From: Xanthobacter sp. YC-JY1
Lineage (GTDB): Bacteria; Pseudomonadota; Alphaproteobacteria; Rhizobiales; Xanthobacteraceae
Assembly (NCBI RefSeq): GCF_021730305.1
Contig: NZ_CP032674.1
Span: 4,759,001-4,823,000 of the forward strand
DNA: 64,000 nt
Direction: 5' to 3'
The translations under genes were made by a program, and so were the position numbers. The first letter of the stretch is position 1. Every line of letters begins with the position of its first letter. Shown here piece after piece: positions 23,795 to 38,121 of the stretch. A model generated the notes under the pieces. It was not told the origin of the DNA and searched no databases. It worked only from the letters and a program-made list of their open reading frames with translations.

Positions 23795-23808
23795 TGGTGC
23801 CAGGAGAG
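23795..23808. repeat. Candidate attL core
   Basis: TGGTGCCAGGAGAG matches TGGTGCCCAGGAGAG at the tRNA-Leu 3' end (38037-38051) except for one missing C, in the same orientation. It lies 142 bases before the first gene of the element. Homology stops directly on both sides. A one-base indel in a 15-base core leaves it uncertain. Confidence 0.45.
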
Positions 23809-23857
23809 ATGTCCAAGTTTTTCTTGGATCTCAAAGGCTTTGTCTTCGGTGCGGGCG

Positions 23858-23875
23858 TTTCAACGCTCGTTGAAA
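23858..23875. promoter_or_regulatory. 18-base perfect palindrome upstream of the replication genes
   Basis: TTTCAACGCTCGTTGAAA has 8-bp arms and a 2-base centre. It lies about 75 bases before the primase-polymerase start, where a promoter or operator of the element's replication operon would be expected. No T-run follows, so a terminator is less likely. Confidence 0.45.
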
Positions 23876-23949
23876 GATAAAGCGAATTTTCTGCACCGCC
23901 CGCACGAGATTTTCCGTTGCAAACACCTTCGCAGCTGGCGGGTGCTCTG

Positions 23950-24255
23950 ATGGCACCCGTCCTTTCGTATGAAGCTGCCCTCGCTTATGCCGCCCTCGGA
24001 TGGCGGGTCTTCCCGTGCGACCCGCATCCCGACAAGTCGCGCTCGAAGCGGCCTCTGGTGGTGGCGGACAAGGGGACGGACGGCTGGTCGATCGCGGGGA
24101 CCGGCTGGCCCTGGAAGGCGACCTCGGACGAAGCGCAGATCCGCGCGTGGTGGAATTGTTGGCCCAATGCCCTGATCGGCATGAACCCCGGCTGGGCGGG
24201 TGGTTATGTGGTGGACCTCGACCCCAAGGGCGAGCCGGTGGAGACCGGGCCATGA
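23950..24255 (+). CDS. Bifunctional primase-polymerase (Prim-Pol) domain protein, short form
   Basis: 101 aa starting MAPVLSYEAALAYAALGWRV. The segments FPCDPHPDKSRSKRPLV, DEAQIRAWW, ALIGMNPGW and GGYVVDLDPKG match the first half of the AEP-type Prim-Pol domain, including the metal-binding acidic VDLD. Full domains are about 180 residues, so this is a half-length version that ends at an ATGA overlap with the primase-helicase gene. The pair may act together or derive from one split gene. It initiates element DNA replication by inference. Confidence 0.75.
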   Translation: MAPVLSYEAALAYAALGWRVFPCDPHPDKSRSKRPLVVADKGTDGWSIAGTGWPWKATSDEAQIRAWWNCWPNALIGMNPGWAGGYVVDLDPKGEPVETGP

Positions 24256-26123
24256 CCGGCTTCATCGATATGATGGCGGCTGTTGCCGCTCGCCTTCTGG
24301 GGGAGCCGAACCCTCACCATTCGTCCAAGGATGAATGGCGGTATGGGACCCACGGCAGCTTGTCCGTGAAGGTCGGCGGTCCCCACAAGGGGACGTGGAT
24401 CGACCACGAGGCGAGCGAGGGCGGCGGCGTTCTCGACCTCATTGCACGTTGCGTCGGGGGCGGTAAGGAAGGCGCCACCGGCTGGCTCCGCCGGGAGTTC
24501 CCCGACTTTGCTGGCCGCCCCGAGGTGCCCAGCGTCCGTGGGCGCACCGTCGCGACCTATCCCTATCACGACGAGACCGGCACGCTGCTCTTCGAGGTGG
24601 TGCGCTCCGATCCGAAGGATTTCCGCCAGCGGCGCCCCGATGGCGCCGGCGGACATACTTGGAACCTCAAAGGCGTGCGGATGGTCCCCTACCATCTGCC
24701 GGAATTGCTCGAAGCCATCGGCCAGGAGCGCACCGTCTTCATCGTCGAGGGCGAGAAGGATGTGGACCGGCTCGGCCGGCTCAACATCCCGGCGACGTGC
24801 AACGCCGGCGGGGCGGGTAAGTGGCGGGATGACTTCGCGGCCCATTTCGCCGGCGCCGATGTCGTCATCGTGCCGGACAATGACGATGCGGGCCGCGACC
24901 ATGCCGAAAAGGTCGCGCGCTCGCTCGCGTCCGTCGCAGCGCGCGTGCGCGTGCTTGCCCTCGCCGGCCTGCCGCGCAAGGGCGACGTGTCCGACTGGCT
25001 GGATGCCGGCGGCACGGTGGATGAACTGCATCGTCTCGCCGAAGAGGCGCCGACCTGGAAGCCTACCGTCGCCACGCGCCTCCCGGCGGTGTGGTGGGGC
25101 GATGAGGACAAGCAACCGCCCCTGCAATGGCTGGTGAAGGGCATGCTCATCGAGGGCGGGCTTTCGACGGTCTACGGGCCGCCGGGCACCTCGAAGACGT
25201 TCCTTGTGCTCGATCTCGCCTTGCACGTCGCCCACGGCCGGGAATGGTTCGGCCGTCGCGTGGCAACGGGCGGGGTGGTCTATGTATCGGGCGAGGGCGG
25301 CTCCGGCATGCGCCAGCGGATGAAGGCGTGGCGGAAGGAGCGCGACGGGGAGGCAGGGCGGCCCTTCGTGCTGGTGCCCTCCTCCGTCGACCTTTTCGAG
25401 GGCGATGACGGCCTAGAGACACTGATCTCTGACGTTCGGCAGCACGCCGGCATGATGTCGGCACCCCTGCGCCTGGTGGTGCTGGACACGCTCTCGCGGA
25501 TGATCGGCGCGGGTGACGAAGATAAGGCGCGCGACATCAATGTCGTGGTGCAGCGGGCCGAGCGCATGCAGCGCGAGCTCGGGTGCCATGTGCTGGTCGT
25601 GCACCATTCCGGCAAGGATCGCGAGCGCGGCGCACGGGGCTCCAATGCCCTGCTCGGTGCCGTCGACGCGGCCATCGAGATTTCCCGTCATGAGACAGGA
25701 TTGTGTGAAGGCAAGATCGCGAAAGTGAAGGACGGCGGGGACATTGCGCCTTTCACGTACGAGCTGCGGCAATCGGTTCTCGGGGCCGACGAGGACGGTG
25801 ACGACATCACCTCCTGCGTCGTCAAGCCCTCGGATGCGAGCCCCGGCGAGGCGAAGGGACTGCCCAAGCTGACCAACCCCGAGCGGATTGCGCGTGAGGC
25901 GTTGATAGAGGCAATCGATGAGCAGGGCGAGGAGATGCACGGGAGCCATGCCCCCACATCCACCCGCGGTGTGCGCGTCGAGACGTGGCGCGAGTATGCC
26001 TACAGGCGAGGGCTCGGTGATACGCCGGACGCGAAGAAGAAGGCGTTCCAGCGTGCTCGGGAGAGCCTCAAGGCCAAGGGCATCATTGGCATCTGGGAGC
26101 CCTTCGCATGGATAATCCGATGA
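24252..26123 (+). CDS. Phage/satellite primase-helicase (Toprim + RecA-like ATPase)
   Basis: 623 aa. The N-terminal part resembles a primase zinc-finger-like region without the cysteines (WIDHEASEGGGVLDLIARCV). A Toprim domain follows (FIVEGEKDVDRL, then VVIVPDNDDAGRDHAEKVA), then a RepA-like AAA ATPase with Walker A YGPPGTSKTFL, Walker B LRLVVLDTLSRM, and LVVHHSGKDRERGARGSNAL. The C-terminal segment has charged helices. This is the Toprim-AAA replication protein of phages and satellites. It starts at the ATGA overlap with the Prim-Pol gene and ends at another ATGA overlap. Confidence 0.9.
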   Translation: MTGFIDMMAAVAARLLGEPNPHHSSKDEWRYGTHGSLSVKVGGPHKGTWIDHEASEGGGVLDLIARCVGGGKEGATGWLRREFPDFAGRPEVPSVRGRTVATYPYHDETGTLLFEVVRSDPKDFRQRRPDGAGGHTWNLKGVRMVPYHLPELLEAIGQERTVFIVEGEKDVDRLGRLNIPATCNAGGAGKWRDDFAAHFAGADVVIVPDNDDAGRDHAEKVARSLASVAARVRVLALAGLPRKGDVSDWLDAGGTVDELHRLAEEAPTWKPTVATRLPAVWWGDEDKQPPLQWLVKGMLIEGGLSTVYGPPGTSKTFLVLDLALHVAHGREWFGRRVATGGVVYVSGEGGSGMRQRMKAWRKERDGEAGRPFVLVPSSVDLFEGDDGLETLISDVRQHAGMMSAPLRLVVLDTLSRMIGAGDEDKARDINVVVQRAERMQRELGCHVLVVHHSGKDRERGARGSNALLGAVDAAIEISRHETGLCEGKIAKVKDGGDIAPFTYELRQSVLGADEDGDDITSCVVKPSDASPGEAKGLPKLTNPERIAREALIEAIDEQGEEMHGSHAPTSTRGVRVETWREYAYRRGLGDTPDAKKKAFQRARESLKAKGIIGIWEPFAWIIR

Positions 26124-26362
26124 AGCGGGACACGAGTGTCCCGGCGGGACAGTCCCGTTTGTCCCGGTGGGGAGCGGGACAGGGGACATCCCCCAAAGGG
26201 GGTGTCCCCTGTCCCGACACCAGCACCACCGCCGCCGTGTTGGTGGGTCTTGCTGGTCGGGTGCGGCGGCTGGCACCGTCACACCGCGACCCTGAGGCCT
26301 TCCACATGGAAAAGTCGGCCATCGAGGGCGAGCTGAAGGCCTTGGCGAGGAAGGTCCGGTGA
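26120..26362 (+). CDS. Small protein after the primase gene, spanning hairpin repeats
   Basis: 80 aa. Its ATG overlaps the primase stop (ATGA), which argues for translation. The first half is low in recognisable structure because the DNA there is a chain of GGGACA/TGTCCC hairpins; the second half (VGLAGRVRRLAPSHRDPEAF and a charged helix to the end) looks like a normal short helical protein. No function is recognised. The DNA structure may matter more than the peptide. Confidence 0.5.
   Translation: MKRDTSVPAGQSRLSRWGAGQGTSPKGGVPCPDTSTTAAVLVGLAGRVRRLAPSHRDPEAFHMEKSAIEGELKALARKVR
26126..26216. repeat. Three consecutive GGGACA/TGTCCC inverted repeats
   Basis: Unit 1 is CGGGACA (26126-26132) and TGTCCCG (26137-26143). 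Unit 2 is CGGGACA (26145-26151) and TGTCCCG (26160-26166), with an inner GTCCCG. Unit 3 is a 14-bp perfect stem (26175-26188 with 26203-26216) enclosing CCCCC-AAA-GGGGG. Six copies of one 7-mer directly behind a replication gene resemble iterons, or a structured RNA. Confidence 0.7.
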
Positions 26363-26621
26363 GGCCGCTTGGTCAGTCCTCGCTCGAAGTTCGGAGAAGG
26401 GGGGGTGGTTGCCGACTTCGCCGTCTTCAGCCGGGACCAGCGGACCCAGTTTGCGCGTGATGGAGGCCTTATGGTGTTTTTCTCATCAGATGCAGATGGT
26501 TAGGTGCGGTTTCCGTGCTACTGCGAGGATATGGCCGAGGCCCCCCGAGGCTGCGAAGTGTCCGAAGTTGTCCGAAGTAGCCCTCTGGTGACGGGCGCGT
26601 AGAAGGCGCAAAAAATGGAGG

Positions 26622-27848
26622 ATGAAGACCCCCTTCGCCCTCCTTCGCTCCTTCCGGGCCGCCGAGCGCAAGTCGCTCGCCTCTCCCGATGCCGATCTGT
26701 TGGCGCTGTTCGGTGCCGCCGGCCCGACCGCCGCGGGTGTGAGCGTGGGGCCGGGCAGCGCTCTCGCCGTGCCTGCGGTGGCATGCGCCGTGCGGGCCAT
26801 CTCCGAGGCCTGCGCCACGCTCGACGTGAAGGTGGTGCGCCGCGAGGCGGGACGTGGCGACGTTGAGGTTCCGGAGCACCCCGCGCTGCCCCTCCTGCGC
26901 GATGCGGCGAACGACTGGACTTCCGGCTTCGAATTCATCCGCGACCTCGCGGCACAGGCCCTCATCCATGACGCTGGCGGCCTCGCGTGGGTGAACAGGG
27001 TCGAGGGCCGTCCGGTGGAGATCATCCACTACGCGGCGGGCTTCCTCTCTGCCGAGTATGACACCGCCGGCACCGGCGAGCCGCTCTACCGACTTCAGGG
27101 CCGCGCACTGCCGGCCGGCGACGTGATCCACCTGCGCTCCCCGTTTGGCCGCTCACCCGTTTCCCTGGCCCGCGAAAGCATCGGCCTTGCCCTCACCCTC
27201 GACGCCCATGCGGCGCGCCTCTTCGGCAATGGCGCCCGCCCCAGCGGCGTGCTGACCGTGAAGGGCAAGACGAGCCCCGACGCCATCCGCAAGATCCGAG
27301 AGGCGTGGCACCTCGCCCATGGAGGCTCGAACTCCGGCAAGACGGCGATCATCGAGGGCGAGACCGAGTATGCGCCCCTGACCATGACCAGCGTGGACGC
27401 GCAGTTCCTGGAGCTGACGCGCTTTCAGGTGCTCCAGATCGCGCGGGCCTTCCGCGTCCCCGTCACCATGCTTCAGGATCTGGAGCGCGCCACTTGGTCG
27501 AACATGGAACAGGCGGGCCGCGAGTTCCTCGTTTACTGCCTGGAGCCATGGCTGCGCGCGCTGGAAGGCGCCCTGGGCCGAGCGCTGTTCACGGCCGAGG
27601 AACGGGCCTCCGGCCTCCGGACTGTCTTCGACCGCGATGACCTCACCCGCGCCGACATCGGCGCCCGGGCCACGGCCTATTCGAGCCTCATCGCCTCGCG
27701 CGTACTTTCGCCGAACGAAGCCCGCCGGTGGGAGGGCCTGCCGCCCTACGAGGGCGGCGACGCCTTCGCCAATCCGAACACCGGGGCCAACCAGCCCGGC
27801 GCCTCCGCGCCGGAGGACACCGGCCGGGTCGCCGAGGTGGATGTCTAA
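26622..27848 (+). CDS. HK97-type portal protein
   Basis: 408 aa. The SPP1/HK97 portal core is visible: VPAVACAVRAISEACATLDV near residue 50, HPALPLLRDAAND, GFEFIRDLAAQALIHDAGG and AWVNR, VIHLRSPF, LALTLDAHAARLFGNGARPS, and LELTRFQVLQIARAFRVPVT. The portal forms the dodecameric DNA channel at one capsid vertex. A GGAGG directly abuts the ATG at 26622, an unusually tight spacing, so the true start could be slightly different. A TAATG overlap couples it to the protease gene. Confidence 0.93.
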   Translation: MKTPFALLRSFRAAERKSLASPDADLLALFGAAGPTAAGVSVGPGSALAVPAVACAVRAISEACATLDVKVVRREAGRGDVEVPEHPALPLLRDAANDWTSGFEFIRDLAAQALIHDAGGLAWVNRVEGRPVEIIHYAAGFLSAEYDTAGTGEPLYRLQGRALPAGDVIHLRSPFGRSPVSLARESIGLALTLDAHAARLFGNGARPSGVLTVKGKTSPDAIRKIREAWHLAHGGSNSGKTAIIEGETEYAPLTMTSVDAQFLELTRFQVLQIARAFRVPVTMLQDLERATWSNMEQAGREFLVYCLEPWLRALEGALGRALFTAEERASGLRTVFDRDDLTRADIGARATAYSSLIASRVLSPNEARRWEGLPPYEGGDAFANPNTGANQPGASAPEDTGRVAEVDV

Positions 27849-28351
27849 TGGAACACGCCTTCCTTGAAACCAAGATCCTTGCTGATGGCGCAGGCGTGAT
27901 CGAGGGGCTGGCGTGGCCCTTCGGCACGCCCGACCGCACCGGCGATGTGATCGAGCCCGGTGCATTCTCCGGCGTTCGCCTGCCGCTGCCGATGCTGTTC
28001 GGCCATGACCCGAACGATCCGGTGGGCGCGTGGACTGAGGCTGCGGAGACCCGCGACGGCCTGCGTCTCAAGGGCCGCCTGCTGGTCGATGAGGTGGCTC
28101 GCGCCCGCGAGGTGTTCGCCCTTGTGAAGGCCGGCGCGGTGCGCGGCCTGTCGGTCGGTTTCATGATCCGCAAGTCGGCGCCACGCGCCGCCGGAGGCCG
28201 CACCATCACGGCGCTCGATCTCTTCGAGTGTTCGCTTGTGACCACGCCCGCGCACCCCGGCGCGCGGGTGGTCGCCGCCAAGTCGGCGGTGACCGCGATT
28301 GCCATTGCCGGGGCTCTCCATCGCGCCGCTGCGGCGATCAGCAAGGGGTAA
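27848..28351 (+). CDS. HK97-family prohead protease
   Basis: 167 aa. The family features are VIEGLAWPFGTPDRTGDVIE at the start, the catalytic His in LPMLFGHDPNDPVG, and the catalytic Ser in VRGLSVGFMI, then TALDLFECSLVTTPAHPGA. It cleaves the capsid delta domain during head maturation. Its start overlaps the portal stop by one base, and the capsid gene follows after 3 bases. Confidence 0.93.
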   Translation: MEHAFLETKILADGAGVIEGLAWPFGTPDRTGDVIEPGAFSGVRLPLPMLFGHDPNDPVGAWTEAAETRDGLRLKGRLLVDEVARAREVFALVKAGAVRGLSVGFMIRKSAPRAAGGRTITALDLFECSLVTTPAHPGARVVAAKSAVTAIAIAGALHRAAAAISKG

Positions 28352-28354
28352 TCC

Positions 28355-29569
28355 ATGTTTCACGACACTTATGCGCCGGCGGGCGTTCCCGTTTACAAGG
28401 CCGATCCGGAAGATCCCGCCTCTGTCGTCACGGCGGCACTCGACGCTTTCAAGGGCGAAGTCGTCACGCGCCTCGACAAGATCGATGCCCGCCTCGACAA
28501 GGTGGAGGCCGCGCAGGGTGGCGGCGACGCTCCCAAGGCCGAGGCCCCGAAGGCTGAGACCAAGGCATTCGGCGACCGGCTGGACAAGATCGAGGCGAAG
28601 CTGAACCGTCCCGCAGGCGTCGAGCGCAAGGCCGATGAGCCGAGCATTGAGCGCAAAGCTTTCGGCACCTACCTGCGCCTAGGCACCGCGGCACCGGTCG
28701 AGGAACTGAAGGCCCTCACTGTCTCCAGCGACCCGCAGGGCGGCTACCTCGCCCCGGCCGAGATGAGCGCCGAGTTCATCCGCGACTTGGTGGAATTCTC
28801 CCCCATCCGCACCCTCGCCAGCGTGCGCGCCACGGCCTCACCCTCGGTGCAGTACCCCAAGCGCACCGGTGTCACGTCCGCCAAATGGAAAGGCGAGACG
28901 CAGGCCTCCGAAGGCTCGGAGCCGAGCTTCGGCCAGCTCGAAATCGTGGTGAAGGAGGTGAACACGTTCGTGGACGTGTCCAATCAGCTCCTCGCCGATA
29001 GCGCCGGTGCGGCGGAAGCCGAGGTGCGACTGGCCCTCGCAGAGGACTTCGGCCAGAAAGAGGGCCTCGCCTTCGTCTCAGGCGACGGCGTGCTTCAGCC
29101 CATGGGCCTGCTTTCCGATGCCGGCATCGGCTCCACGGTCAGCGGTTCCGCTGCGGCCCTCACCTCCGATGGTCTCATTTCGCTCATGTATGCCCTGCCG
29201 GCGGCCTATCGCGGGCGTGGCTCCTGGCTCATGAACGGATCGACGCTGGCCACCCTTCGCAAGCTGAAGGACGGGCAAGGCAATTACCTTTGGCAGCCGT
29301 CCTATGCCGCGGACGTCCCCGAGACCATCCTCGGCCGCCCGGTGGTTGAGGCGGTGGACATGCCCGACGTGGCGGCGAACGCCTTCCCCATCCTGTTCGG
29401 CGACTTCGCCACCGCCTATCGGATCGTGGACCGCCTCGCGCTCTCGATCCTCGTGAACCCGTATTCCCGCGCCACTGAGGGCGTCACCCGCATCCATGCC
29501 ACCCGCAGGGTGGGCGCGGGCGTGGTGCAGCCCAAGGCTTTGCGCAAACTGAAGATCGCCGCGAACTGA
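28355..29569 (+). CDS. HK97-type major capsid protein
   Basis: 404 aa. The first ~110 residues are a coiled-coil, charged delta (scaffold) domain (FKGEVVTRLDKIDARLDKVE and repeats of DRLDKIEAKL) that the protease should remove. The HK97 fold begins around ALTVSSDPQGGYLAPAEMSA and includes FSPIRTLASV, TSAKWKGETQASEGSEPSFG, DFGQKEGLAFVSGDG, WLMNGSTLATLRKLKDGQG and ILGRPVVEA. It is full length and shows no frameshift, so the element can probably build its own heads. Confidence 0.96.
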   Translation: MFHDTYAPAGVPVYKADPEDPASVVTAALDAFKGEVVTRLDKIDARLDKVEAAQGGGDAPKAEAPKAETKAFGDRLDKIEAKLNRPAGVERKADEPSIERKAFGTYLRLGTAAPVEELKALTVSSDPQGGYLAPAEMSAEFIRDLVEFSPIRTLASVRATASPSVQYPKRTGVTSAKWKGETQASEGSEPSFGQLEIVVKEVNTFVDVSNQLLADSAGAAEAEVRLALAEDFGQKEGLAFVSGDGVLQPMGLLSDAGIGSTVSGSAAALTSDGLISLMYALPAAYRGRGSWLMNGSTLATLRKLKDGQGNYLWQPSYAADVPETILGRPVVEAVDMPDVAANAFPILFGDFATAYRIVDRLALSILVNPYSRATEGVTRIHATRRVGAGVVQPKALRKLKIAAN

Positions 29570-29581
29570 GGAGGGCCGACC

Positions 29582-29962
29582 ATGCGTGACCTGGTGCACA
29601 ACATCTCCGCCGTCCCTGCTCTCGCACCGGCGGTGCAGGCTGCTGCCGCCGATGGCGCCGCCATCGATCTGCGTGGGTTCAACCGCGTCGCCTTCGTCGT
29701 CAATACCGGCGCTATCGTCGGCGCGGGCGACTTCGGCGTGAAGTTGCAGGAGGGCGACGACGGCGTGACCTTTGCCGATGCCGCGGCTGCCGTGGTGCAG
29801 GGCTCGGTGCCCGCGACGTTGGCGGCGGCAAGCACCTACAAACTCGGCTACGTCGGGTTCAAGCGCTTTGCGCGCCTGTCCCTGACGAAGGCCGGCGGCA
29901 CCTCGCTCGCCATCGGCGCCGTTGCCGTGCTGGCGGATCCCGCGACCGTTCCCGTTTCGTAA
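29582..29962 (+). CDS. Small head-associated protein, possibly capsid decoration
   Basis: 126 aa starting MRDLVHNISAVPALAPAVQA. It is predicted mostly beta (FNRVAFVVNTGAIVGAGDFG, VKLQEGDDGVTFADAAAAVV, LGYVGFKRFARLSLT). Genes of this size and fold directly after the major capsid gene often encode cement or head-completion proteins. I know no exact family. It follows the capsid gene by 12 bases with a GAGG ahead of the ATG. A 172-base spacer then precedes the HNH gene. Confidence 0.7.
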   Translation: MRDLVHNISAVPALAPAVQAAAADGAAIDLRGFNRVAFVVNTGAIVGAGDFGVKLQEGDDGVTFADAAAAVVQGSVPATLAAASTYKLGYVGFKRFARLSLTKAGGTSLAIGAVAVLADPATVPVS

Positions 29963-30134
29963 TCCCGGCGCGTTCAGGTGAGGGCGCGTAGCGGCCCGCC
30001 CAACAACGGTAATCCCACCTCCCCGGCGCCGGCCGAGCGATCGGTTTTCATGGCGGGGTCAAGGCGGGAACGGTCGCAATTCTAGGGGGGGGCCACGCCC
30101 GGCGCTGGCCTCCCCGTCATTCGGAGCAAACATC

Positions 30135-30518
30135 ATGGCGGTGCGTCCCCCACGGATATGCTCTTGCGGCTGCGGCAAGGTGCTGCGCGACGGCGAGCGT
30201 TGCCCGGCCCGGGTGGCCCGCAAGAAAGCCGCCGAGCAGGCCGCAGATGCGGCACGCCCGACTGCCCGGGAGCGTGGCTACACCACCAAATGGCAGAAGG
30301 AGTCAAAGGCCTTCCTCGCCATCCCTGGGCATGAGCGGTGCGTGCACTGCGGAGGCGTAGCGACGCTGGTGGATCACAAGGTGGCGCACAAGGGCGACAT
30401 GAAGCTGTTCTGGAGCCGCAGCAACTGGCAGCCGAGTTGCGGGCGCTGCAATCGCGCCAAGGCCGTCCGCGAGGAAGGCGCCTTCGGCAGGCCTGTCAAA
30501 GCCGGAGTGCTGGCATGA
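30135..30518 (+). CDS. HNH endonuclease
   Basis: 127 aa. The HNH core is CVHCGGVATLVDHKVAHKGD, then WSRSNWQPSCGRCNRAKAVR, with two CXXC zinc knuckles, the DH pair and the Asn. An extra CSCGCGK motif lies near the N-terminus. Phage HNH proteins next to terminase genes assist DNA cleavage during packaging in cos-type systems. Its stop overlaps the connector start (ATGA). Confidence 0.92.
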   Translation: MAVRPPRICSCGCGKVLRDGERCPARVARKKAAEQAADAARPTARERGYTTKWQKESKAFLAIPGHERCVHCGGVATLVDHKVAHKGDMKLFWSRSNWQPSCGRCNRAKAVREEGAFGRPVKAGVLA

Positions 30519-30814: not shown

Positions 30815-30825
30815 CGGAGCCCGCC

Positions 30826-31251: not shown

Positions 31252-32812
31252 GCCGGTGGCCGATCCGTTCGGCTATGGCGAGCGGGCAGTGAAGTTCCTG
31301 CGCGCGCTGCGCCATCCCAAAAGCCGCCTCGCGGCGCGCGCCTTCCAGCTCGATCCCTGGCAAGAAGATATCGTGCGACGCATCTATGGTCCCTGCGATG
31401 AAGGCGGCGCGCGCATCGTGAAGACCGTGGTGCTGCTGCTCCCGCGCGGCAACCGCAAAACCTCCCTGTGCGCGGCGCTTGCCTTGCTCCACACCTTCGG
31501 CCCGGAGCGCCTCCCCGGTGGCGAAATCATCTCGGCCGCCTCCGACCGCAAACAGGCGCGCATCGCCTTCGAGGAGGCCCGCGGCATCATCGAAGCGACG
31601 GCGCCACTCAAGGCCATCACCGCCCCGCAGGAGTACAAGAACCGATTGGTGAACACGAAGTGGCGCAGCTTCTATGAGGCCATCAGTTGCGACGCTGGCA
31701 CCCAGCACGGGCGCACCCCGGCCTTCGTCCTGGCCGATGAGCTGCACGCCTGGAAGAAGCGCGATCTTTGGGACGTGCTGAAGTCGGGCTTGGTGAAGAC
31801 GCCCGGTTCACTCCTGATTGTCGCCACTACGGCAGGGCGCGGACAGGAAAACCTCGCCTTCGACATCGTGAACGATGCCCGCCGGGTAGCGCGCGGCGAG
31901 GTGGACGATCCTTCCATCCTGCCCGTCCTGTACGAGGCCGGGAAGGATGACGACTGGCGCGATGAGCGGGTGTGGCGCCGGGTCAATCCCGGCCTTGCCC
32001 ACGGCTATCCCGACATCGCCGGCTTGCGTCAGCTTGCGCGCGAGGGCGAACGCCGGCCGGGCGACCGCGATGCCTTCCGCCAATTGAACCTCAATGTGTG
32101 GCTGGATCATTCCGTCGATCCATTCGTGGACATGGGTGTCTATGACGAGGGCGCGCAGCTCGTGGACCTCGACGCGCTCGTTGACGCCCCGTGCTGGCTG
32201 GCGGTGGACCTCTCCTCAAATGGCGACCTCACCTGCATTGTCGCCGCCTGGCGCGAGGGTGAGGATGGCTTCGTAGTGCACCCGTGGTTCTTCTGCCCCG
32301 CCGACAATCTGCGCCTGCGCGCCGAGCGCGACGGCGTGCCCTACCCCGCCTGGGCCGAGGCCGGCCACATCACGCCGACCCCCGGAAACGTGGTGGATTT
32401 CCGTCATGTCGAGGACACCATTCGCGACCTCTGCGAGCGCTTTCAGGTGCAGGAGATCGCGTTCGATCCCTACCTCGCCCGCAATATGATGATGAACCTC
32501 GCCGACGATGGTCTGCCCGCCGTCGAGATGCGGCAGAACTGGGCAACCATGGCGCCGGCCGTCAAGGAACTGGAGCGCGCGATTGTCGGCCGCCGGCTTG
32601 TCCACGGCGGCCATCCGGTGCTGCGGTGGAACTTCGACAATGTGGCCGTACACACGGACAGCGCCGGCAACCGCGTCTTCCACAAGGGCAAGAGCCGAGA
32701 TCGCATCGACGGCGCCGTCGCCTGCGCCATGGCCGTCAGCCGCGCCTCTGCGGGCGATGGTGGCTCGATCTATGACAGCGAGGAGTGGTCGGCCGAGCTG
32801 ATGGTGATGTGA
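31205..32812 (+). CDS. Terminase large subunit
   Basis: 535 aa. The ATPase half has a Walker A variant LLPRGNRKTSLCAALAL and Walker B AFVLADELHAWKK. The nuclease half has AVDLSSNGDLTCIV with its metal-binding Asp, VQEIAFDPYLARNMM, and FHKGKSRDRIDGAVACAMAV near the end. It is the motor that cuts and pumps DNA into the head. GGAGG six bases upstream supports the ATG at 31205. Terminase genes lie downstream of the capsid genes here, the reverse of most HK97-type prophages. Confidence 0.95.
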   Translation: MTSSAAACSATLASTEPVADPFGYGERAVKFLRALRHPKSRLAARAFQLDPWQEDIVRRIYGPCDEGGARIVKTVVLLLPRGNRKTSLCAALALLHTFGPERLPGGEIISAASDRKQARIAFEEARGIIEATAPLKAITAPQEYKNRLVNTKWRSFYEAISCDAGTQHGRTPAFVLADELHAWKKRDLWDVLKSGLVKTPGSLLIVATTAGRGQENLAFDIVNDARRVARGEVDDPSILPVLYEAGKDDDWRDERVWRRVNPGLAHGYPDIAGLRQLAREGERRPGDRDAFRQLNLNVWLDHSVDPFVDMGVYDEGAQLVDLDALVDAPCWLAVDLSSNGDLTCIVAAWREGEDGFVVHPWFFCPADNLRLRAERDGVPYPAWAEAGHITPTPGNVVDFRHVEDTIRDLCERFQVQEIAFDPYLARNMMMNLADDGLPAVEMRQNWATMAPAVKELERAIVGRRLVHGGHPVLRWNFDNVAVHTDSAGNRVFHKGKSRDRIDGAVACAMAVSRASAGDGGSIYDSEEWSAELMVM

Positions 32813-32871
32813 GATCGGTACGGAAGCGCTTGATTTTCAAGTGAGTTGCTGAAAACAATCGGACAGGTTGT

Positions 32872-33798
32872 GTGTTGAAATCGATTCAAACGAGACTGGC
32901 CTTACAAAAAATGCCCGCGCCTGCGACCCCGATTATCAGAATACCGTACAGATTATGCGACTACACTCTCCCTAAGGTTTTGGCAGAAGTTTTGAGCCAA
33001 TGCGGGGGTAACTTGCCTCCGACATTGGATTTCGACATGAGCTCTCTGTCGTTTATCGAGCCTGCTGGAGTGACATTTCTAAGCAATATTGGATACTGGC
33101 TGGTATCTCGCGGCTGCAATCCACGCTTTATCAATATTGATAACAGAAACCAATCTATTATATATCTCGATGATTCCCTATTTTTCGAACAGCATTGCGG
33201 CTCTCGGCTAAGGGTGGAAGCGTGCCCCCGTCGCACAACGCAGCCTCTCCAAAGGATCGACCACGATCGGATTCATAGCTGGCTTCGGATGGAATTGATC
33301 CCCTGGCTGAGCAGCTGCCTCGGGATGACGCAAAGTTCTCTATCTATGTTTCAAGTGTGTATCTCTGAATTATTCAATAATATTAATGATCATTCTATTC
33401 CTAATACGGGCAGTATTTTCGTTCAACATTATCCAAATAAGAATGAAATAAGGATTGCCGTTGCGGATTTTGGCCCCGGAATTCCATCTACTGTGGCTAG
33501 GAGGGCGCCAAACCTGACTGACGTTCAAGCTATTCTAAAGGCTGTTGAGCCGGGCTTTTCTTCTCTCAGTTCGCCCCGCAATCGAGGGGCGGGGCTTGAT
33601 ATTTTGCTTGAGACGGCGGTGAGGAGGAACGGCGGCAGGGTCACCATATTTTCGCAGAGTTCCTATGTTGTATTCTCTCAGCAAGGCTGCCATGTCCATG
33701 GTGGCGTCGGTTTCTGCCCCGGCACCACGATTGACATTTGCCTTAGAACTGACACGATCGAGCAGATAGAGGACGGCCCGGAGGATTTGGAATGGTAA
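32872..33798 (+). CDS. GHKL-type ATPase with N-terminal STAS-like region (cargo)
   Basis: 308 aa, clearly more AT-rich than its neighbours. Residues ~50-100 resemble a STAS fold (TLDFDMSSLSFIEPAGVTFL). Residues ~160-290 form a GHKL ATPase: N-box CISELFNNINDHS (163-175), G1 VADFGPGIP (197-205), G2 NRGAGLDILLETAV (237-250), and PGTTIDI. No phospho-acceptor H-box or membrane helix is visible, so it is not an ordinary sensor kinase. The next gene overlaps it and encodes a STAS-like protein. The GTG start at 32872 is uncertain; ATG at 32911 is possible. It may work by partner switching, as anti-sigma kinases do. Confidence 0.8.
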   Translation: MLKSIQTRLALQKMPAPATPIIRIPYRLCDYTLPKVLAEVLSQCGGNLPPTLDFDMSSLSFIEPAGVTFLSNIGYWLVSRGCNPRFINIDNRNQSIIYLDDSLFFEQHCGSRLRVEACPRRTTQPLQRIDHDRIHSWLRMELIPWLSSCLGMTQSSLSMFQVCISELFNNINDHSIPNTGSIFVQHYPNKNEIRIAVADFGPGIPSTVARRAPNLTDVQAILKAVEPGFSSLSSPRNRGAGLDILLETAVRRNGGRVTIFSQSSYVVFSQQGCHVHGGVGFCPGTTIDICLRTDTIEQIEDGPEDLEW

Positions 33799-34103
33799 TC
33801 CGAGTTGTCGATTTTTTGCCGTCGGCCGACACTGCTGAGCAGGGCGCCGTGCTTCACAACATGCTGTTGGACGAGCTGAAGAGCGGCACGACAATCACGG
33901 TATCATTTTACCATATTCAGAGTGCCACTTCATCGTTCGTGAATGCTGCGTTTGTGGATCTGCTAAGCCATTTCGGCTTCGATGAACTAAAGAAGCGGCT
34001 TCGCATCGTAGAGTCGAGCCGGCAGATCAATGAAATGATTAAATCGCGCCTGTCTTTCGAGTCAGATCGAGTGTCGCGCGATGTGTCACGACTGCACGCA
34101 TGA
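33792..34103 (+). CDS. STAS-like DUF4325 protein (cargo partner)
   Basis: 103 aa. VDFLPSADTAEQGAVLHNML, VSFYHIQSATSSFVNAAFVD, LLSHFGFDELKKRLRIVES and INEMIKSRL follow the DUF4325 pattern: a conserved S-F-x-N-x-A-F turn and an L-K-K-R segment. DUF4325 is a STAS-related fold often encoded beside GHKL ATPases. It overlaps the ATPase gene by 7 bases. The GHKL partner could phosphorylate or bind it; which, and to what end, is unknown. It is AT-rich like its partner. Confidence 0.82.
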   Translation: MVIRVVDFLPSADTAEQGAVLHNMLLDELKSGTTITVSFYHIQSATSSFVNAAFVDLLSHFGFDELKKRLRIVESSRQINEMIKSRLSFESDRVSRDVSRLHA

Positions 34104-34126
34104 TGCACAAGGTCCGAGAATGATTA

Positions 34127-34152
34127 AAAGCCCCGCTCTGGCGGGGTTTTTT
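34127..34152 (+). terminator. Rho-independent terminator after the cargo genes
   Basis: CCCCGC (34131-34136), loop TCTG, GCGGGG (34141-34146), then six T; an A-run precedes it, so it may work in both directions. It ends the structural/cargo operon and, on the minus strand, the XRE gene. Confidence 0.9.
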
Positions 34153-34176
34153 GTGCCCATATGAGCTAAATATATT

Positions 34177-34413
34177 TTACTCCAAGCTCAACTTGTTCCT
34201 TAACCGCACTCCCGGCCCGCCGCCATTCTCCGGGATGAACTCGACGCCAGCAGCTTCGAGAGCGTGCTGGATGGCCTCGACGGTGCGGGGCTTCAGCTCT
34301 TCACCGGCTTCGAGGCGAGAGACGGTCGCCGGGGCAACCTTTGCAATCTCGGCCAATTCACGGATGCCGAGACCCAGCGCAACGCGCGCCATCTTGCATT
34401 GGACAGCCAGCAT
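34177..34413 (-). CDS. Small XRE-type HTH regulator (element repressor candidate)
   Basis: 78 aa. An HTH_3 domain covers MARVALGLGIRELAEIAKVA and PATVSRLEAGEELKPRTVEA, followed by IQHALEAAGVEFIPENGGGP and GVRLRN. The last segment, A-G-V-E-F-I-P-E-N-G-G-G-x-G-V-R-L, is the common small alphaproteobacterial XRE protein; a chromosomal relative is at 59326. It is the only minus-strand gene of the element and faces a divergent gene across a repeat-rich operator region, the position of a master repressor. Confidence 0.9.
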   Translation of the reverse strand: MLAVQCKMARVALGLGIRELAEIAKVAPATVSRLEAGEELKPRTVEAIQHALEAAGVEFIPENGGGPGVRLRNKLSLE

Positions 34414-34485
34414 TTTAGAGCACCGCTCTCATTTTAGCTTGACGTTCTAATATCAACGCTCCATTTTTAGAGCGTCGTTATCATT
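34413..34485. promoter_or_regulatory. Operator/promoter region between the XRE gene and the divergent operon
   Basis: TTTTAGAGC occurs at 34413-34421 and again at 34465-34473. AGAGCACCGCTCT (34417-34429) is an inverted repeat with 5-bp arms. The whole region is AT-rich against a GC-rich background. These repeats are candidate XRE binding sites controlling both directions. Confidence 0.6.
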
Positions 34486-34505
34486 CGTACCACAGGAGCA
34501 CGCGC

Positions 34506-34904
34506 ATGGGCACCCATGTTCGCGAACAGGAGAAGTGCGTCTCTCGCCGCCCGGTCCTCAAGAGCGTCGCAACTGGGCTGGTTGGAATGCCCCTTGGCAT
34601 TTGGGTCGCGGCCGAGCCGGATCCGGTCTTCGCTGCGATCGCGTTGCACTCTCAGCTTTGGCGCGCCGTCGAGCAAGTCTGCTGCCAAGGCGGGTTGACC
34701 GATCAGGTAAAAAAGGCCTCCCTCCGGGAGGGCGAGGCCTTGCATTACTTCCTTGCAACCGTCCCCACGACCAGAGCGGGCTTGCTCGCCTACATCGATC
34801 ATCTCGGCTCGCCCATGGGGTTCGGCGAGGACGGGCCATCCGATGAGGAGATGCCCGCGATCCTCAAGACCATCCGCGCCTTCGCGGAGGCTCGCCATGC
34901 GTAG
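34506..34904 (+). CDS. Conserved small element protein of unknown function
   Basis: 132 aa. The start resembles a twin-arginine signal (SRRPVLKSVATGLVGMPLGI), followed by PDPVFAAIALHSQLWRAVEQ. Proteins with this arrangement are common in alphaproteobacterial prophages and have no assigned role. The hydrophobic stretch is short and has no clear cleavage site, so export is doubtful. AGGAG lies 7 bases before the ATG. It is the first gene rightward from the XRE operator region and overlaps the next gene. Confidence 0.75.
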   Translation: MGTHVREQEKCVSRRPVLKSVATGLVGMPLGIWVAAEPDPVFAAIALHSQLWRAVEQVCCQGGLTDQVKKASLREGEALHYFLATVPTTRAGLLAYIDHLGSPMGFGEDGPSDEEMPAILKTIRAFAEARHA

Positions 34905-35457
34905 CGCCTCGCCTCGCACCTTCGAGATGGTGGAGACGACACGTTTCCGCGCCCGCGTCGTCGCCGCCATCGAAACCCTTGTGGACCTCCTCGACGAGCT
35001 GGACCTCGATCCGGACCTTGAGCCGGACAATGACGATGAACCCTCCCTCGGCTGGCGCGAAGCGCGCGGGGGTAATGGCCTGTGCCCGACCTTCACTGAT
35101 GAAGCCGAACTCGGCTCCTGGATCGAGGGCGCTCGGCAGCAGCATATCGGGCGCTTCACCGCGCATACCGAGGACGAGGAGCACACGGCCCCCGAGCGGT
35201 ATGGGAAAGGCTTCGTCGATGCCGGTCCCGACGACGATGAAGACAGCGACCCCGGCGGCGGCGACATCCTCGATATCGCCGCGGATCAGGACGCGGTGGA
35301 CCTCCTACAGGAAGAATTGGCCTTCCATCGCTGGATGGATGACACCCGCCCGGCGAGGCTCAAAGCCCATGAAGCCACTCGCGCACAGATCGCCAAAGCC
35401 ACCGGCCGGAAGCCCGGATCGCACTGGTGCATCTCAACACGGATCCAGCCGCGGTGA
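34897..35457 (+). CDS. Acidic hypothetical element protein
   Basis: 186 aa, strongly acidic. The N-terminal helix (VVAAIETLVDLLDELDLDPD) leads into LEPDNDDEPSLGW and later DAGPDDDEDSDPGGGD. No domain is recognised. Similar acidic proteins with a 'LLDxLDxDPDxE' start recur in rhizobial prophages. It overlaps the upstream gene by 8 bases with CGGAGG ahead of the ATG, so the two are coupled. It may act as a DNA mimic or adaptor, which is only speculation from charge. Confidence 0.7.
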   Translation: MRSASPRTFEMVETTRFRARVVAAIETLVDLLDELDLDPDLEPDNDDEPSLGWREARGGNGLCPTFTDEAELGSWIEGARQQHIGRFTAHTEDEEHTAPERYGKGFVDAGPDDDEDSDPGGGDILDIAADQDAVDLLQEELAFHRWMDDTRPARLKAHEATRAQIAKATGRKPGSHWCISTRIQPR

Positions 35458-35471
35458 GGAAACTCTCGGCC

Positions 35472-35512
35472 TATTGGATTTTATTTCCAATGGGGTTTTC
35501 GGCTCCCATTGG
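35472..35512. promoter_or_regulatory. ATTGG/CCAAT operator cluster upstream of the winged-helix gene
   Basis: CCAATGGG (35487-35494) and CCCATTGG (35505-35512) form a perfect inverted repeat around 10 bases. A second pair, ATTGGA (35473-35478) and TCCAAT (35486-35491), overlaps it. The region is AT-rich and lies 38 bases before the next start codon. It looks like an autoregulated operator. Confidence 0.6.
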
Positions 35513-35549
35513 CTATGATATCTAATGGAGGTTCAAAGAGGATCTTCTT

Positions 35550-36233
35550 ATGGCTTCCCCCGGAGATTTGGTTGCGGCTGTCGCGGCGGTGCTCGGCTAT
35601 CCGCTGGTGACGATCTCCACCTATTACCGCCATCTCCGCGAGGCAGGGCTCGTGACCAAGGGCGGGCGTGGCCCCAGCGCCGCGCAGATGAGCCCGCGCG
35701 ATGCTGCGCTTCTTCTGCTGGCCGTGGCGGCTTCGGACGAGGCTAAGACGGCAGCAGAGCGGACGCTGGCCATGGGGTTGATCCCCCTTGTCTATCGTTC
35801 CAGGGAGCGGGGACAGGAAACTTCCCTGCTCTCAGTTTTCGATGACTTGCCTGCCAGCCACACCTTCGCCGACGCACTCACCATGCTGTTGGATTGTGCC
35901 GGCCAAGGATCGTTGCAATCGGCGATCAACGCCACCCTGTCCTCTACCGATGGCAGCGTAAAGGTCTGGAATATCCGAGTCACGATCCTGGGACCTCTTC
36001 CTCAGGCGCGTATCGATATCTTCGTCGGTGGCAGGCATGAAACGCTCTCCTATTCGAGCATTCCCAGCGAACTATTCTCGGAATTCGATCCGGGTGAGGG
36101 GTTGGATGCCCTGAAGAATTGGAGCAGTGAAACCGAGCACTCGTTTCCCGGCGATATGAGCTTCACGCGTGAGTTCACCAGCCGGGCAATCTTGCGCATC
36201 GGCGCGCTGGTTGCGGGCAAGGTGAAGCAGTGA
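35550..36233 (+). CDS. Winged-helix element protein
   Basis: 227 aa. The first ~60 residues form a winged HTH: VAAVLGYPLVTISTYYRHLR, EAGLVTKGGRGPSAAQMSP. The rest (ETSLLSVFDDLPASHTFADA, then a beta-rich VWNIRVTILGPLPQARIDIF) is not recognised. Proteins of this kind occur in rhizobial mobile elements and may be regulators. It probably binds the ATTGG/CCAAT repeats just upstream. Its stop overlaps the excisionase-like gene (TGATG), linking it to excision control. Confidence 0.72.
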   Translation: MASPGDLVAAVAAVLGYPLVTISTYYRHLREAGLVTKGGRGPSAAQMSPRDAALLLLAVAASDEAKTAAERTLAMGLIPLVYRSRERGQETSLLSVFDDLPASHTFADALTMLLDCAGQGSLQSAINATLSSTDGSVKVWNIRVTILGPLPQARIDIFVGGRHETLSYSSIPSELFSEFDPGEGLDALKNWSSETEHSFPGDMSFTREFTSRAILRIGALVAGKVKQ

Positions 36234-36421
36234 TGTCTTCGGTCGTGCGCCCCCTCAAGACGGCGAAGCAAATCGCCCACGCGCTCGGCGTCTCCGAGCG
36301 CACAGTGAGCCGCATGGTTCGCAAGGGTCTCCTCCCCGCCACCAAGGGCGGCTGCGGCGGGCGCACGAGCCCGCTGGTGATCGAGCGCAAGGCGCTGGAA
36401 ACCGTGAAGAAGGCACGCTGA
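36233..36421 (+). CDS. Excisionase/AlpA-like HTH protein
   Basis: 62 aa, MerR-like HTH_17: LKTAKQIAHALGVSERTVSR, then MVRKGLLPATKGGCGGRTSP and LVIERKALETV. This is the recombination directionality factor/AlpA-type architecture found beside phage and satellite integrases. In PICIs, AlpA activates the lysogenic-to-lytic gene set. It overlaps the winged-helix gene and lies about 0.5 kb before the integrase gene. Confidence 0.85.
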   Translation: MSSVVRPLKTAKQIAHALGVSERTVSRMVRKGLLPATKGGCGGRTSPLVIERKALETVKKAR

Positions 36422-36422
36422 C

Positions 36423-36704
36423 ATGGATGATCTCCCGATCCGCCATATCGCAGTGGGGTGCGCTTCCTGGGTGGGAAACGGCGGCTGGTCAAAGCGCCCG
36501 CCGAGCGCATCCGCAATGAGGCTTCAGCGCAAGCTGGATGCGGAGGCGGCGGCCGGCACTCTGCAATTTCCGCCCGAGAACGCCGTGCGCTCGATGCGCT
36601 TCGGTTTCCCCTGCCGCATTGTCCTGTGGGACTGGGAGGAGAACTTCAAAGCGCGCGCCGAGCGCGCTCGCGCGGCCCGGGCCAAAAAGCGTGGGAAGGG
36701 CTGA
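36423..36704 (+). CDS. Small hypothetical element protein
   Basis: 93 aa. PPSASAMRLQRKLDAEAAAG, FGFPCRIVLWDWEENFKARA and a basic C-terminal helix (ERARAARAKKRGKG) are the visible parts. No family is recognised. It starts 1 base after the excisionase-like gene and is followed by another small gene after 4 bases, so it belongs to the xis-int operon. Confidence 0.65.
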   Translation: MDDLPIRHIAVGCASWVGNGGWSKRPPSASAMRLQRKLDAEAAAGTLQFPPENAVRSMRFGFPCRIVLWDWEENFKARAERARAARAKKRGKG

Positions 36705-36708
36705 GGCC

Positions 36709-36915
36709 ATGGCGCGCACGCCGTCCAACTTCGTCCAATCCGACCTCAGCCGGACCCTCCGCGCCTGCAAGGATGCCGGCGTGCTCGATCGTGTGGTGGT
36801 ACGCGTCGAGAAGGGCGTCTTCATGATCATGCCAGTCGGAACGGCTTCGTCCATGCCCGCCACCTCTTCCGATGAGGAGCCTTCCGAGGATCTTCCCGAG
36901 CTGCCCGAGTTCTGA
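36709..36915 (+). CDS. Small protein preceding the integrase
   Basis: 68 aa starting MARTPSNFVQSDLSRTLRAC with VVVRVEKGVFMIMPV and an acidic tail (DEEPSEDLPELPEF). Proteins of the form 'xNFTQxDVxRALRAxxxAG...VxIxxDGxIxI' often lie just before integrase genes in alphaproteobacterial elements. The function is unknown. It ends 9 bases before the integrase ATG. Confidence 0.72.
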   Translation: MARTPSNFVQSDLSRTLRACKDAGVLDRVVVRVEKGVFMIMPVGTASSMPATSSDEEPSEDLPELPEF

Positions 36916-36924
36916 GGGTAACCC

Positions 36925-38013
36925 ATGCCGCGGCCTCTTCCCCCATCCCTTCATCGCGAGCGCACGCGCCACGGACAGGTTGTCTATTACGTCCGGCGGA
37001 AACACGGGCCGCGCGTCCGTATCCGCGCCGAGTTCGGAACGCCTGCCTTCTATGAGGAGTACCGCGCGGCGCTCGCGGCGGAACCCACGCCCCGCGCGGG
37101 TAAAGGCCCGCAGGCGGGTTCTATCGAATGGGCGATCAAACGCTACATGGCCAGTTCGGCTTGGGCGGGCCTGTCGCCGGCAACGCGACGCGCACGTGAG
37201 AACATCTTCCACCAGATCACGGAGGCGGCGGGCGACAAGATGCTGTCGCAGGTGACCCAGCGCACAATCATCGGCGGCCGGGAAAAGCGGGCGAAGACGC
37301 CGCATGCCGCGAACAACTACCTCAAGGCCATGCGCGGACTGTTCGGCTGGGCGGCCGGCGACGGCGGGTTGGTCAAGGTCAATCCCGCTCTGGGCGTGAA
37401 GCTCCTCAAGGGCGCCAACGACGCCGAGGGCTTCCACACTTGGACGGAAGAGGAGGTTGCGCGCTTCGAAGAGGCTTGGCCCCTCGGGACGCGGGAGAGG
37501 CTCGCTCTCGACATTCTGCTCTATACGGGGCTGCGGCGCGGAGACGCGGCGAAGCTCGGCCGCCAGCACGTCCGCGATGGCGTTATCACGATCCGCACCG
37601 AGAAGACGGGGGAGGTGGTAAGCCTTCCCGTGCTTGAGCCCCTGGCGCGATCCATCGCAGCCACCACAACAGGCGACTTGACCTTCCTCATCACCGAGCG
37701 GGGCACGCCCTTCGCCAAGGAGAGCTTCGGCAACTGGTTCAAGAAGGCCTGCGTCAAGGCCAAGGTGCCCGGTTCGGCGCATGGGCTGCGGAAGGCGGGG
37801 GCGACGCGCGCCGCCGAGAACGGCGCCAGCGAGCGCGAACTGATGGCCCTGTTCGGCTGGAACACTGGGAAGATGGCTGTCCACTACACCAAGGCGGCGA
37901 GCCAGAAGCGCCTTGCCCAAGAGGCGGCCCAACTGCTGCTGCCGAAACGGACGCGGAACAAAAGCGCCCGTACCCCACGCCCCGGTGCGGGCGCTAGCGC
38001 TAAAAATCGTTGA
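36925..38013 (+). CDS. Tyrosine recombinase/integrase of the element
   Basis: 362 aa. The N-terminal arm domain precedes a SAM-like core-binding domain (SIEWAIKRYMASSAWAGLSP, ANNYLKAMRGLFGWAAGDGG). The catalytic domain has Arg in YTGLRRGDAAKLGRQH, a Lys strand (ITIRTEKTGEVVSLPV), HxxR in AHGLRKAGATRAAE, Trp at the second His position in ALFGWNTGKMAVHYTKAA, and the nucleophilic Tyr in that same segment. It inserts the element at the tRNA-Leu 3' end, 23 bases away. GAGGG lies ahead of the ATG. Confidence 0.95.
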   Translation: MPRPLPPSLHRERTRHGQVVYYVRRKHGPRVRIRAEFGTPAFYEEYRAALAAEPTPRAGKGPQAGSIEWAIKRYMASSAWAGLSPATRRARENIFHQITEAAGDKMLSQVTQRTIIGGREKRAKTPHAANNYLKAMRGLFGWAAGDGGLVKVNPALGVKLLKGANDAEGFHTWTEEEVARFEEAWPLGTRERLALDILLYTGLRRGDAAKLGRQHVRDGVITIRTEKTGEVVSLPVLEPLARSIAATTTGDLTFLITERGTPFAKESFGNWFKKACVKAKVPGSAHGLRKAGATRAAENGASERELMALFGWNTGKMAVHYTKAASQKRLAQEAAQLLLPKRTRNKSARTPRPGAGASAKNR

Positions 38014-38036
38014 TTTTCAGGAGCTTAGAAAATGAA

Positions 38037-38051
38037 TGGTGCCCAGGAGAG
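38037..38051. repeat. attR core: 3' end of tRNA-Leu
   Basis: TGGTGCCCAGGAGAG is the CCA end, acceptor strand and start of the T-arm of the tRNA read on the plus strand. It is matched, less one C, by the candidate attL at 23795. The integrase keeps the tRNA gene intact. Confidence 0.5.
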
Positions 38052-38121
38052 GACTCGAACCTCCACGGCTTTCACCACTGGTACCTGAAACCAGCGCGTC
38101 TACCAATTCCGCCACCTGGGC
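38037..38121 (-). tRNA. tRNA-Leu(CAG), CCA encoded
   Basis: On the minus strand the gene reads GCCCAGG...CCTGGGC-ACCA. The D-arm is GCGGAATTGGTAGACGC, the anticodon stem-loop CTGGT-TTCAGGT-ACCAG with anticodon CAG (plus-strand positions 38085-38087), followed by a long class II variable arm (TGGTGAAAGCCG) and a T-arm with TTCGAGT. All stems pair. It decodes CUG, the main Leu codon of this genome. Its 3' end borders the integrated element. Confidence 0.97.

Follow-up and report, generated by a model that had tools for sequence, protein, structure and literature searches.

Capsid-Forming Satellites and the Xanthobacter Element

Capsid-forming phage-inducible chromosomal islands (cf-PICIs) are listed in PMC10690885 and PMC13230959 with a set of head, packaging and HNH genes, and the same set is found in an element of Xanthobacter sp. 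YC-JY1 located at positions 23795–38036 of the 64,000-nucleotide stretch of contig NZ_CP032674.1 analyzed here (the window). The element has its own capsid, protease, portal, head-tail adaptor, terminase small and large subunit (TerS and TerL), HNH and integrase genes, no tail genes were found in it, and its size of 14,242 bp is close to the cf-PICI average of 14 kbp given in PMC10803314. Most probably it is a phage satellite that forms its own capsids, has heads but no tails and acts in the manner of a cf-PICI, a reading put forward in the original prediction and supported by the gene set, the size, the attachment (att) sites and the relatives of the element. The cf-PICI hosts named in PMC10803314 are Enterobacteriaceae, Pasteurella, Morganellaceae and groups of Firmicutes, and PMC10690885 describes cf-PICIs as widely distributed across Bacteria. 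In the literature searched, which was covered in part and with subscription papers outside, no alphaproteobacterial cf-PICI was evident from the titles and the beginnings of the abstracts.

The cf-PISP satellite-plasmids of Vibrio, as described in PMC13230959, likewise have head and packaging genes without tails, and relatives of the window element also occur on small circular plasmids in Roseomonas and Paracoccus, whereas the window element itself is chromosomal and has a full integration module. In the helper-embedded arrangement reported in PMC10111431, the satellite lies within a late gene of the helper and its replication origin is placed downstream of pri. One relative of the window element (locus L006) also lies inside a siphoprophage late gene, and the same origin placement is proposed for the window element, which is integrated at a tRNA-Leu gene and not in a helper late gene. 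Satellite-encoded heads and packaging are further described for MulchRoom and MiniFlayer of Streptomyces phages, which differ from the present element in their virulent helpers, the lack of an obvious replicase and the bacterial phylum (PMC10690885).

The window element departs from cf-PICIs in its alphaproteobacterial host, in giving no match for the head closure protein Hc1, in matching HTH_17 and not Phage_AlpA, and in the existence of sister elements with tail genes. Its gene order, portal-protease-capsid-HNH-adaptor-TerS-TerL, is also unlike that of cf-PICIs, in which HNH-TerS-TerL precede the portal; a phage-like E. coli plasmid record shows the order HNH-TerS-TerL-portal. The element appears to be cf-PICI-like in function, and the term is used here without implying membership proper.

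Head and Packaging Genes

The 20 proteins of the element were scanned with Pfam and PHROG. The head and packaging genes, all on the plus strand, begin with the portal at 26622–27848 (PF04860, E = 2.8e-87), followed by an S78 prohead protease at 27848–28351 (PF04586, 8.6e-24), an HK97-type major capsid protein at 28355–29569 (PF05065, 2.7e-83) and a conserved 126-residue protein beside the capsid at 29582–29962 (phrog_5707, 3.5e-32). An HNH endonuclease at 30135–30518 (phrog_144, 1.4e-19; PF01844 below the Pfam cut-off) and the HK97 gp6-like head-tail adaptor Ad1 at 30515–30814 (PF05135, 1.2e-11; phrog_40, 2.3e-23) are followed by TerS at 30826–31251 (PF05119, 7.9e-23) and by TerL at 31205–32812, in which both domains are recognized (PF20441, 1.8e-32; PF03354, 3.5e-14). 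These genes had been described as unbroken, and this description is borne out: they are full length, and the ratio of nonsynonymous to synonymous substitution rates (dN/dS) is 0.12–0.27 for all seven head and packaging genes against the nearest relative, L003, with similar lengths, which places them under purifying selection. In neither Pfam nor PHROG did a protein among the 20 match a family of tail proteins, holins or endolysins, and tail profiles built from the relatives gave no match within the window, in agreement with the original prediction that tail, lysis and holin genes are missing. The element therefore lacks the combination of tail, tip and lysis genes of a complete prophage, as far as these scans reach.

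Relatives of the Element and Their Tail Genes

With the capsid as the query, the best 80 of at least 595 IMG/VR loci and the best 80 of 327 genome loci were fetched. From their titles, we take all the genome loci to be alphaproteobacterial except one, an Exiguobacterium metagenome-assembled genome (MAG). The order portal-protease-capsid-...-TerS-TerL recurs among the fetched relatives. Annotation with custom profiles found portal, capsid and TerL together in 139 of 161 sequences; 34 of the 139 had no match to tape measure, tube/chaperone or tail terminator (13 of the 34 with Hc1). The full set of four tail and neck markers was present in 77, and 28 were mixed.

The six close head-only relatives are L003, Aquabacter cavernae L084, Azorhizobium L085, Ancylobacter koreensis L091, A. 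rudongensis L087 and A. mangrovi L092, and no tail family matched any of 20 further proteins from these six, mostly encoded between TerL and the repressor. Four of the six are islands bounded by tRNA repeats, namely those of Azorhizobium (16.6 kb, 17-bp repeat at tRNA-Leu(cag)), A. koreensis (16.9 kb, 15-bp repeat with the same tRNA-Leu core), A. mangrovi (16.5 kb, 53-bp repeat, tRNA-Gly) and A. rudongensis (16.7 kb, 16-bp repeat, tRNA-Met). The original prediction had proposed to look for the compact gene order at tRNA-Leu in other genomes, and the Azorhizobium and A. koreensis islands are such cases. Further bounded islands are those of Luteovulum (head-only, 14.4 kb, 33-bp repeat, tRNA-Arg), a Phyllobacteriaceae MAG (16.7 kb, 47-bp repeat, with Hc1 and head-only by custom profiles alone) and Azospirillum lipoferum (16.2 kb, 48-bp repeat, with Hc1 and terminator). 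Tail-bearing islands occur in Xanthobacteraceae 501b (17.2 kb, 51-bp repeat), Stappia (17.5 kb, 47-bp repeat) and Mesorhizobium (15.0 kb, 19-bp repeat), so that the bounded tail-bearing relatives are as compact as the head-only ones. The circular plasmid relatives, one of 16.9 kb in Roseomonas (no tail genes by custom profiles; an IS21 transposase gene is present) and one of 17.5 kb in Paracoccus (with a tape measure), set hard limits on size. The 17.5-kb circular plasmid, locus L259, has other tail genes besides its tape measure.

In the tail-bearing relatives, the chaperone follows the portal, the tube protein lies near HNH, the terminator and closure genes precede TerS, and the tape measure follows TerL. 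A distal tail protein is added in the Stappia island; in L099, positions 3367–20935 hold a tape measure, other tail genes and a distal tail protein. No J-type tip was found in the bounded tail-bearing examples examined, no open reading frame longer than 395 residues follows the tape measure of seven tail-bearing loci within the fetched flank (which ends 1.8–5.2 kb on), and no tip or lysis family was seen among ten proteins scanned from three elements. DUF2460, a phage tail family, is present in 23 of 26 genomes, in 20 of them as a single copy, and lies far from the element in all three genomes in which positions can be compared (G177, G190 and G196). A complete prophage with the same gene order, and with tail and lysis genes, which would have spoken for a deletion remnant, was not found among the relatives checked, a comparison that covers part of the 160 loci and leaves the lysis genes of relatives aside.

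In 50,697 phage records, all 604 matches to the major capsid protein and all 1,503 matches to TerL were below 60% identity, the best TerL identity among the phage matches listed being 39%, while capsids at about 50–78% identity occur in loci of the family of the window element. A lineage evolving as satellites would give this pattern, with no close phage and with nearer capsids within the family.

A TerL tree was calculated by a quick method from this one gene, with 132 rows (119 different) after four duplicates and rows without a long TerL, a portal or a capsid were dropped. The head-only label required a contig of at least 2.5 kb past TerL, and the tail-bearing label a tape measure with at least one of tube/chaperone or terminator. 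Custom profiles first gave 27 head-only, 88 tail-bearing and 17 partial rows. A PHROG re-check of the head-only calls found a tape measure in L086 and L096 (the L005 proteins are near-identical to those of L086) and a tail terminator in L110, whose TerL is shared by L033 along with matching open reading frames. After L086, L005, L096, L052, L110, L033 and L090 were relabeled, 21 rows were head-only, 92 tail-bearing and 19 partial. L052 has head genes and, after TerL (12514–14358), a 614-residue tail fibre-like protein, and no tape measure was found in it; this gene recalls the tail fibre gene of MiniFlayer (PMC10690885).

Insertion Site and Boundaries

The original prediction of a 14-kb element at tRNA-Leu with an integrase, an excisionase-like helix-turn-helix (HTH) protein, a primase-helicase, and head and packaging genes was upheld by Pfam and PHROG, with att coordinates that proved exact. 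The element is integrated at tRNA-Leu(cag), which occupies 38037–38121 on the minus strand and whose 3′ terminus forms its right end. The attR core TGGTGCCCAGGAGAG (38037–38051, no strand assigned) lies within this 3′ end, and the attL core TGGTGCCAGGAGAG (23795–23808, likewise without strand) is one base, a C, shorter. Taken alone, the attL copy is a weak match, scoring 26 where the second-best position in the window scores 24, and an automatic repeat search over 86 sequences, which printed 12 candidate repeats, gave none for the window element. The boundary is corroborated by G011, a genome of the same genus in which the alignment of the homologous segment ends at the identical base and the copy likewise lacks that C, and by perfect copies of the core flanking relatives in Azorhizobium doebereinerae (17 bp) and Ancylobacter koreensis (15 bp).

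Directly to the left of the element, positions 23510–23780 (plus strand) hold a relic of the C-terminus of another element's tyrosine integrase, which matches the 3′ ends of integrases in G009 (79% at the DNA level) and G011 (76%) and has a broken frame. The relic marks an earlier occupation of the site. Other integrases adjoin the same tRNA-Leu in the same-genus genomes G002 and G009, indicating that the site is a hot spot. A clean empty site was not found; close relatives have other integrases or a 10-kb insert at this tRNA-Leu.

Replication, Regulatory and Cargo Genes

At the left end, a 623-residue primase-helicase with Toprim and AAA_25 domains is encoded at 24252–26123 on the plus strand (PF13481, 1.3e-51; PHROG DNA primase/helicase, 1.9e-49; Toprim matches below the cut-off). 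Replication genes had been placed beside attL in the original prediction; the Prim-Pol gene next to attL (23917–24255, plus strand) is only an N-terminal fragment of 112 residues, covering profile positions 1–66 of 158 (PF09250, 5.6e-15). Directly after the primase-helicase lies an iteron-like array, a putative replication origin, at 26127–26215 (no strand assigned), with 9 copies of GGGAC/GTCCC in 110 bp compared with a maximum of 3 in 63,639 other 110-bp intervals. At the corresponding position, all four other loci in the same primase cluster repeat a six-base word 8 or 9 times (CGGGAC in L011 and L067, GGGAAC in L012 and CGGCAC in L043). By raw count, loci with other primases mostly have fewer copies, although a few reach seven or eight. 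The array looks like an iteron origin. The word differs between elements with related primases, a possible specificity code between primase and origin.

An apparently noncoding block at 29961–30111 (plus strand), upstream of HNH, is conserved in relatives. An nhmmer profile of the block gave 31 matches in the 161 sequences (E up to 0.01), 23 of them at E < 1e-10 and 14 of these 23 outside the nine sequences used to train it, and the block is kept in several relatives in which the neighboring DNA diverges. In the nearest relative, L003, the blastn alignment breaks at the block, which counts against conservation, and the profile still finds it there (2.8e-16). The simplest reading is that of a candidate packaging (cos) site, by analogy with HK97-type phages.

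Behind TerL, where the cargo varies between elements, lie the genes for a HATPase-domain protein (32872–33798; PF02518, 1.6e-6; phrog_3364, 4e-34) and a STAS-like DUF4325 protein (33792–34103; PF14213, 1.4e-12), both on the plus strand, and this pair (32872–34103) has 49% GC compared with 68% in the head genes. For ten element proteins, PADLOC gave no more than weak or generic matches, and none that is credible for the pair. At this position, close relatives (L084, L085, L087, L091 and L092) have cargo that may serve in defence, with a kinase and a helicase in A. rudongensis, an ATPase and a phrog_3964 protein in Azorhizobium, a dCMP deaminase-like protein in Aquabacter, and ATPase pairs; regulators are seen as well. 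The Azorhizobium element also has, between attL and the portal, a 440-residue open reading frame that is GGDEF-like by eye.

The right part begins with an Xre-type repressor on the minus strand (34177–34413; PF13560/PF01381), divergent from the integrase operon; it is a putative counterpart of the Stl-like master repressor of cf-PICIs. The remaining genes are on the plus strand. Three small proteins of 132, 186 and 227 residues (34506–36233) have no Pfam match and no convincing PHROG match, with homologs at the same place in some relatives. They are followed by the excisionase/AlpA-like HTH_17 protein (36230–36421; PF12728, 2.3e-9; phrog_66, 7e-7), for which no Phage_AlpA (PF05930) match was obtained; the PICMI model in PMC10803314 accepts PF12728 for AlpA. 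Two proteins of 93 and 68 residues (36423–36915) have no family match, the 68-residue one having an Azorhizobium homolog, and the last gene encodes a tyrosine integrase (36925–38013; PF00589, 4.6e-16) that shares 68% identity with its counterpart in the Azorhizobium element, itself located at a tRNA-Leu(cag).

Possible Helpers

The genome of the strain contains a siphoprophage (G000:C1:4130000-4160000) with a lambda-type portal, head genes, a distal tail protein, a J-like fibre and another tail protein. Its 942-residue primase matches the Prim-Pol fragment of the element at 78% amino acid identity over 91 residues and, at the beginning of the primase gene, 79.6% DNA identity over 274 bp, a similarity that we read as a trace of recombination with the phage type of this prophage, which is a candidate helper. 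Little relationship is seen between the tail genes of this prophage and those of the satellites. As a source of the head genes, the prophage was considered and rejected, because only the Prim-Pol fragment was matched (tblastn at 1e-3, and DNA).

A closer view of a possible helper is given by L006, a close relative (capsid 69%, TerL 75%) that lies inside a siphoprophage in a 65-kb record; together with L261 and L262, it spans contig positions 4–62 kb. Upstream of L006 lie the HNH, TerS, TerL, portal, capsid and tail genes of the prophage, its tape measure, a gene for a minor tail protein and a short one that is NlpC peptidase-like by eye, and the J fibre gene follows L006. Within its first 47 residues, the J frame lacks a usual start codon. 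Alignments with J of two further phages set in at its residues 8 and 18, and the intact genes of these phages start 24 and 22 codons ahead of those points, so that J is broken close to its beginning. Across L006, a 21-codon open frame may be the missing start of J; it offers no testable homology. The J-type tip domain was found in one of 15 virus records searched, that of the prophage hosting L006.

The genome also has a gene transfer agent (GTA)-like cluster (G000:C1:1324000-1342000), in which genes for portal, capsid, tail and tip occur together. The only PF04860 portals of the genome are that of the window element and one in this cluster, and a 40%-identical capsid elsewhere in the genome, considered as a second copy of the element, was rejected since it sits in the cluster. 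Capsid matches occur in 99 of 149 genomes of the family, mostly at 35–40% identity and GTA-like by inference. A GTA is by definition a cluster without integrase or replication genes; the window element has an integrase, a primase and att sites, and is distinct from the GTA-like cluster.

Alternative Explanations

Several findings weigh against a working head-only satellite. The attL core is one base short, and excision in this strain may be weak or lost; Prim-Pol is truncated; none of 34 IMG/VR contigs showed the terminal repeats of a circular form; and Hc1 was not found with PHROG or the relatives' profiles, so that the connector of the original prediction stands for Ad1 without the closure protein, and a helper would also have to provide the stopper. 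The custom profiles miss divergent tail genes, and several of the 21 head-only rows of the TerL tree were classed by these profiles alone, which makes absence uncertain in them. The head-only rows are moreover scattered on the tree, with 14 changes of label after relabeling, of which at least 10 are forced. The defects of attL and Prim-Pol, the relic integrase abutting the left side and the tail genes of most relatives could be expected of a deletion remnant, an ordinary siphoprophage in decay after the loss of its tail and lysis genes. Such an origin is unlikely, given that the head and packaging genes are full length with signs of purifying selection, that bounded islands in several genera have this head-only order as well, and that no related phage, at 60% or more in capsid or TerL, is among the phage records. 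The bounded tail-bearing relatives are small as well, and since the tail genes of relatives lie at several separate places, one deletion would not give the layout of the window element.

The tail genes of the window lineage may nevertheless have been lost rather than never owned. L004, which has a tape measure, a major tail protein and a tail terminator, groups with the window element and L003 on the TerL tree (SH-aLRT 98), the label changes many times, and two places where relatives have tail genes are occupied differently in the window element, with a gap of only 11 bp between the adaptor and TerS and with cargo after TerL. We consider it quite conceivable, if somewhat less probable than the contrary, that the element is a working satellite whose ancestor produced a tail tube as well as a head. 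The window element, L003, L084 and L085 are all head-only, however, so that the loss would predate the window element; exchange of TerL could mimic repeated loss in a quick one-gene tree, and a gain in L004 is equally possible. The variable cargo after TerL in the window element, A. rudongensis, Azorhizobium and Aquabacter would suit a chromosomal defence island whose heads interfere with phages and do not travel, which is improbable in view of the packaging module, candidate cos site, integrase, excisionase and putative origin, all pointing to mobility, and of the PADLOC result. That the GTA of the host is the helper, its tails capping the satellite heads, is an idea suggested by the GTA-like cluster of this genome and by the GTA-like capsids so common in the family; it has very little to recommend it, as no direct sign of interaction was seen and both the siphoprophage with shared primase DNA and the J-embedded L006 point to phages.

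Proposed Life Cycle

The window element is an integrated island that has its own integration, replication, head-building and packaging genes and belongs to a family of small islands. The following course would be expected of a head-only satellite working like a cf-PICI. Entry or induction of a helper siphophage would relieve the Xre repressor, and the integrase and HTH_17 excisionase would free the circular element, which the primase-helicase would replicate from the array at 26127–26215. The capsid, protease and portal of the element would build heads, which HNH, TerS and TerL would fill, probably from the block at 29961–30111. The adaptor Ad1 would then receive the neck and tail of the helper, which would lyse the cell. 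Helper use, excision, replication and particle formation are inferred, while the genes themselves are read from the sequence.

Implications for the Alphaproteobacteria

A wider reading, which we offer tentatively, is that a large lineage of satellites lives in Alphaproteobacteria, drawing on a pool of head and packaging genes apart from sequenced phages and depending on helpers to graded degrees. If so, members like the window element would borrow a whole tail and some would add neck parts; most would make the head, the neck, the tube and the tape measure themselves, with perhaps only tip and lysis functions borrowed, and one would bring its own fibre. Excision of L006 from the tip gene of its helper would then time the availability of the missing part. 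This reading is rated slightly lower because the tail genes are spread among the head genes and do not form one detachable block. That satellites take up late genes from phages has been reported before (PMC10111431), so that the tail-bearing forms are less novel than they might seem.

Islands like the window element can pass for decaying prophages in automatic annotation. With this family, the capsid-forming satellite strategy would extend to many Alphaproteobacteria, in a different gene order and with tail genes that appear and disappear, which makes a question testable: what share of the virion does a satellite have to encode for itself, and what determines the parts that it takes from others?

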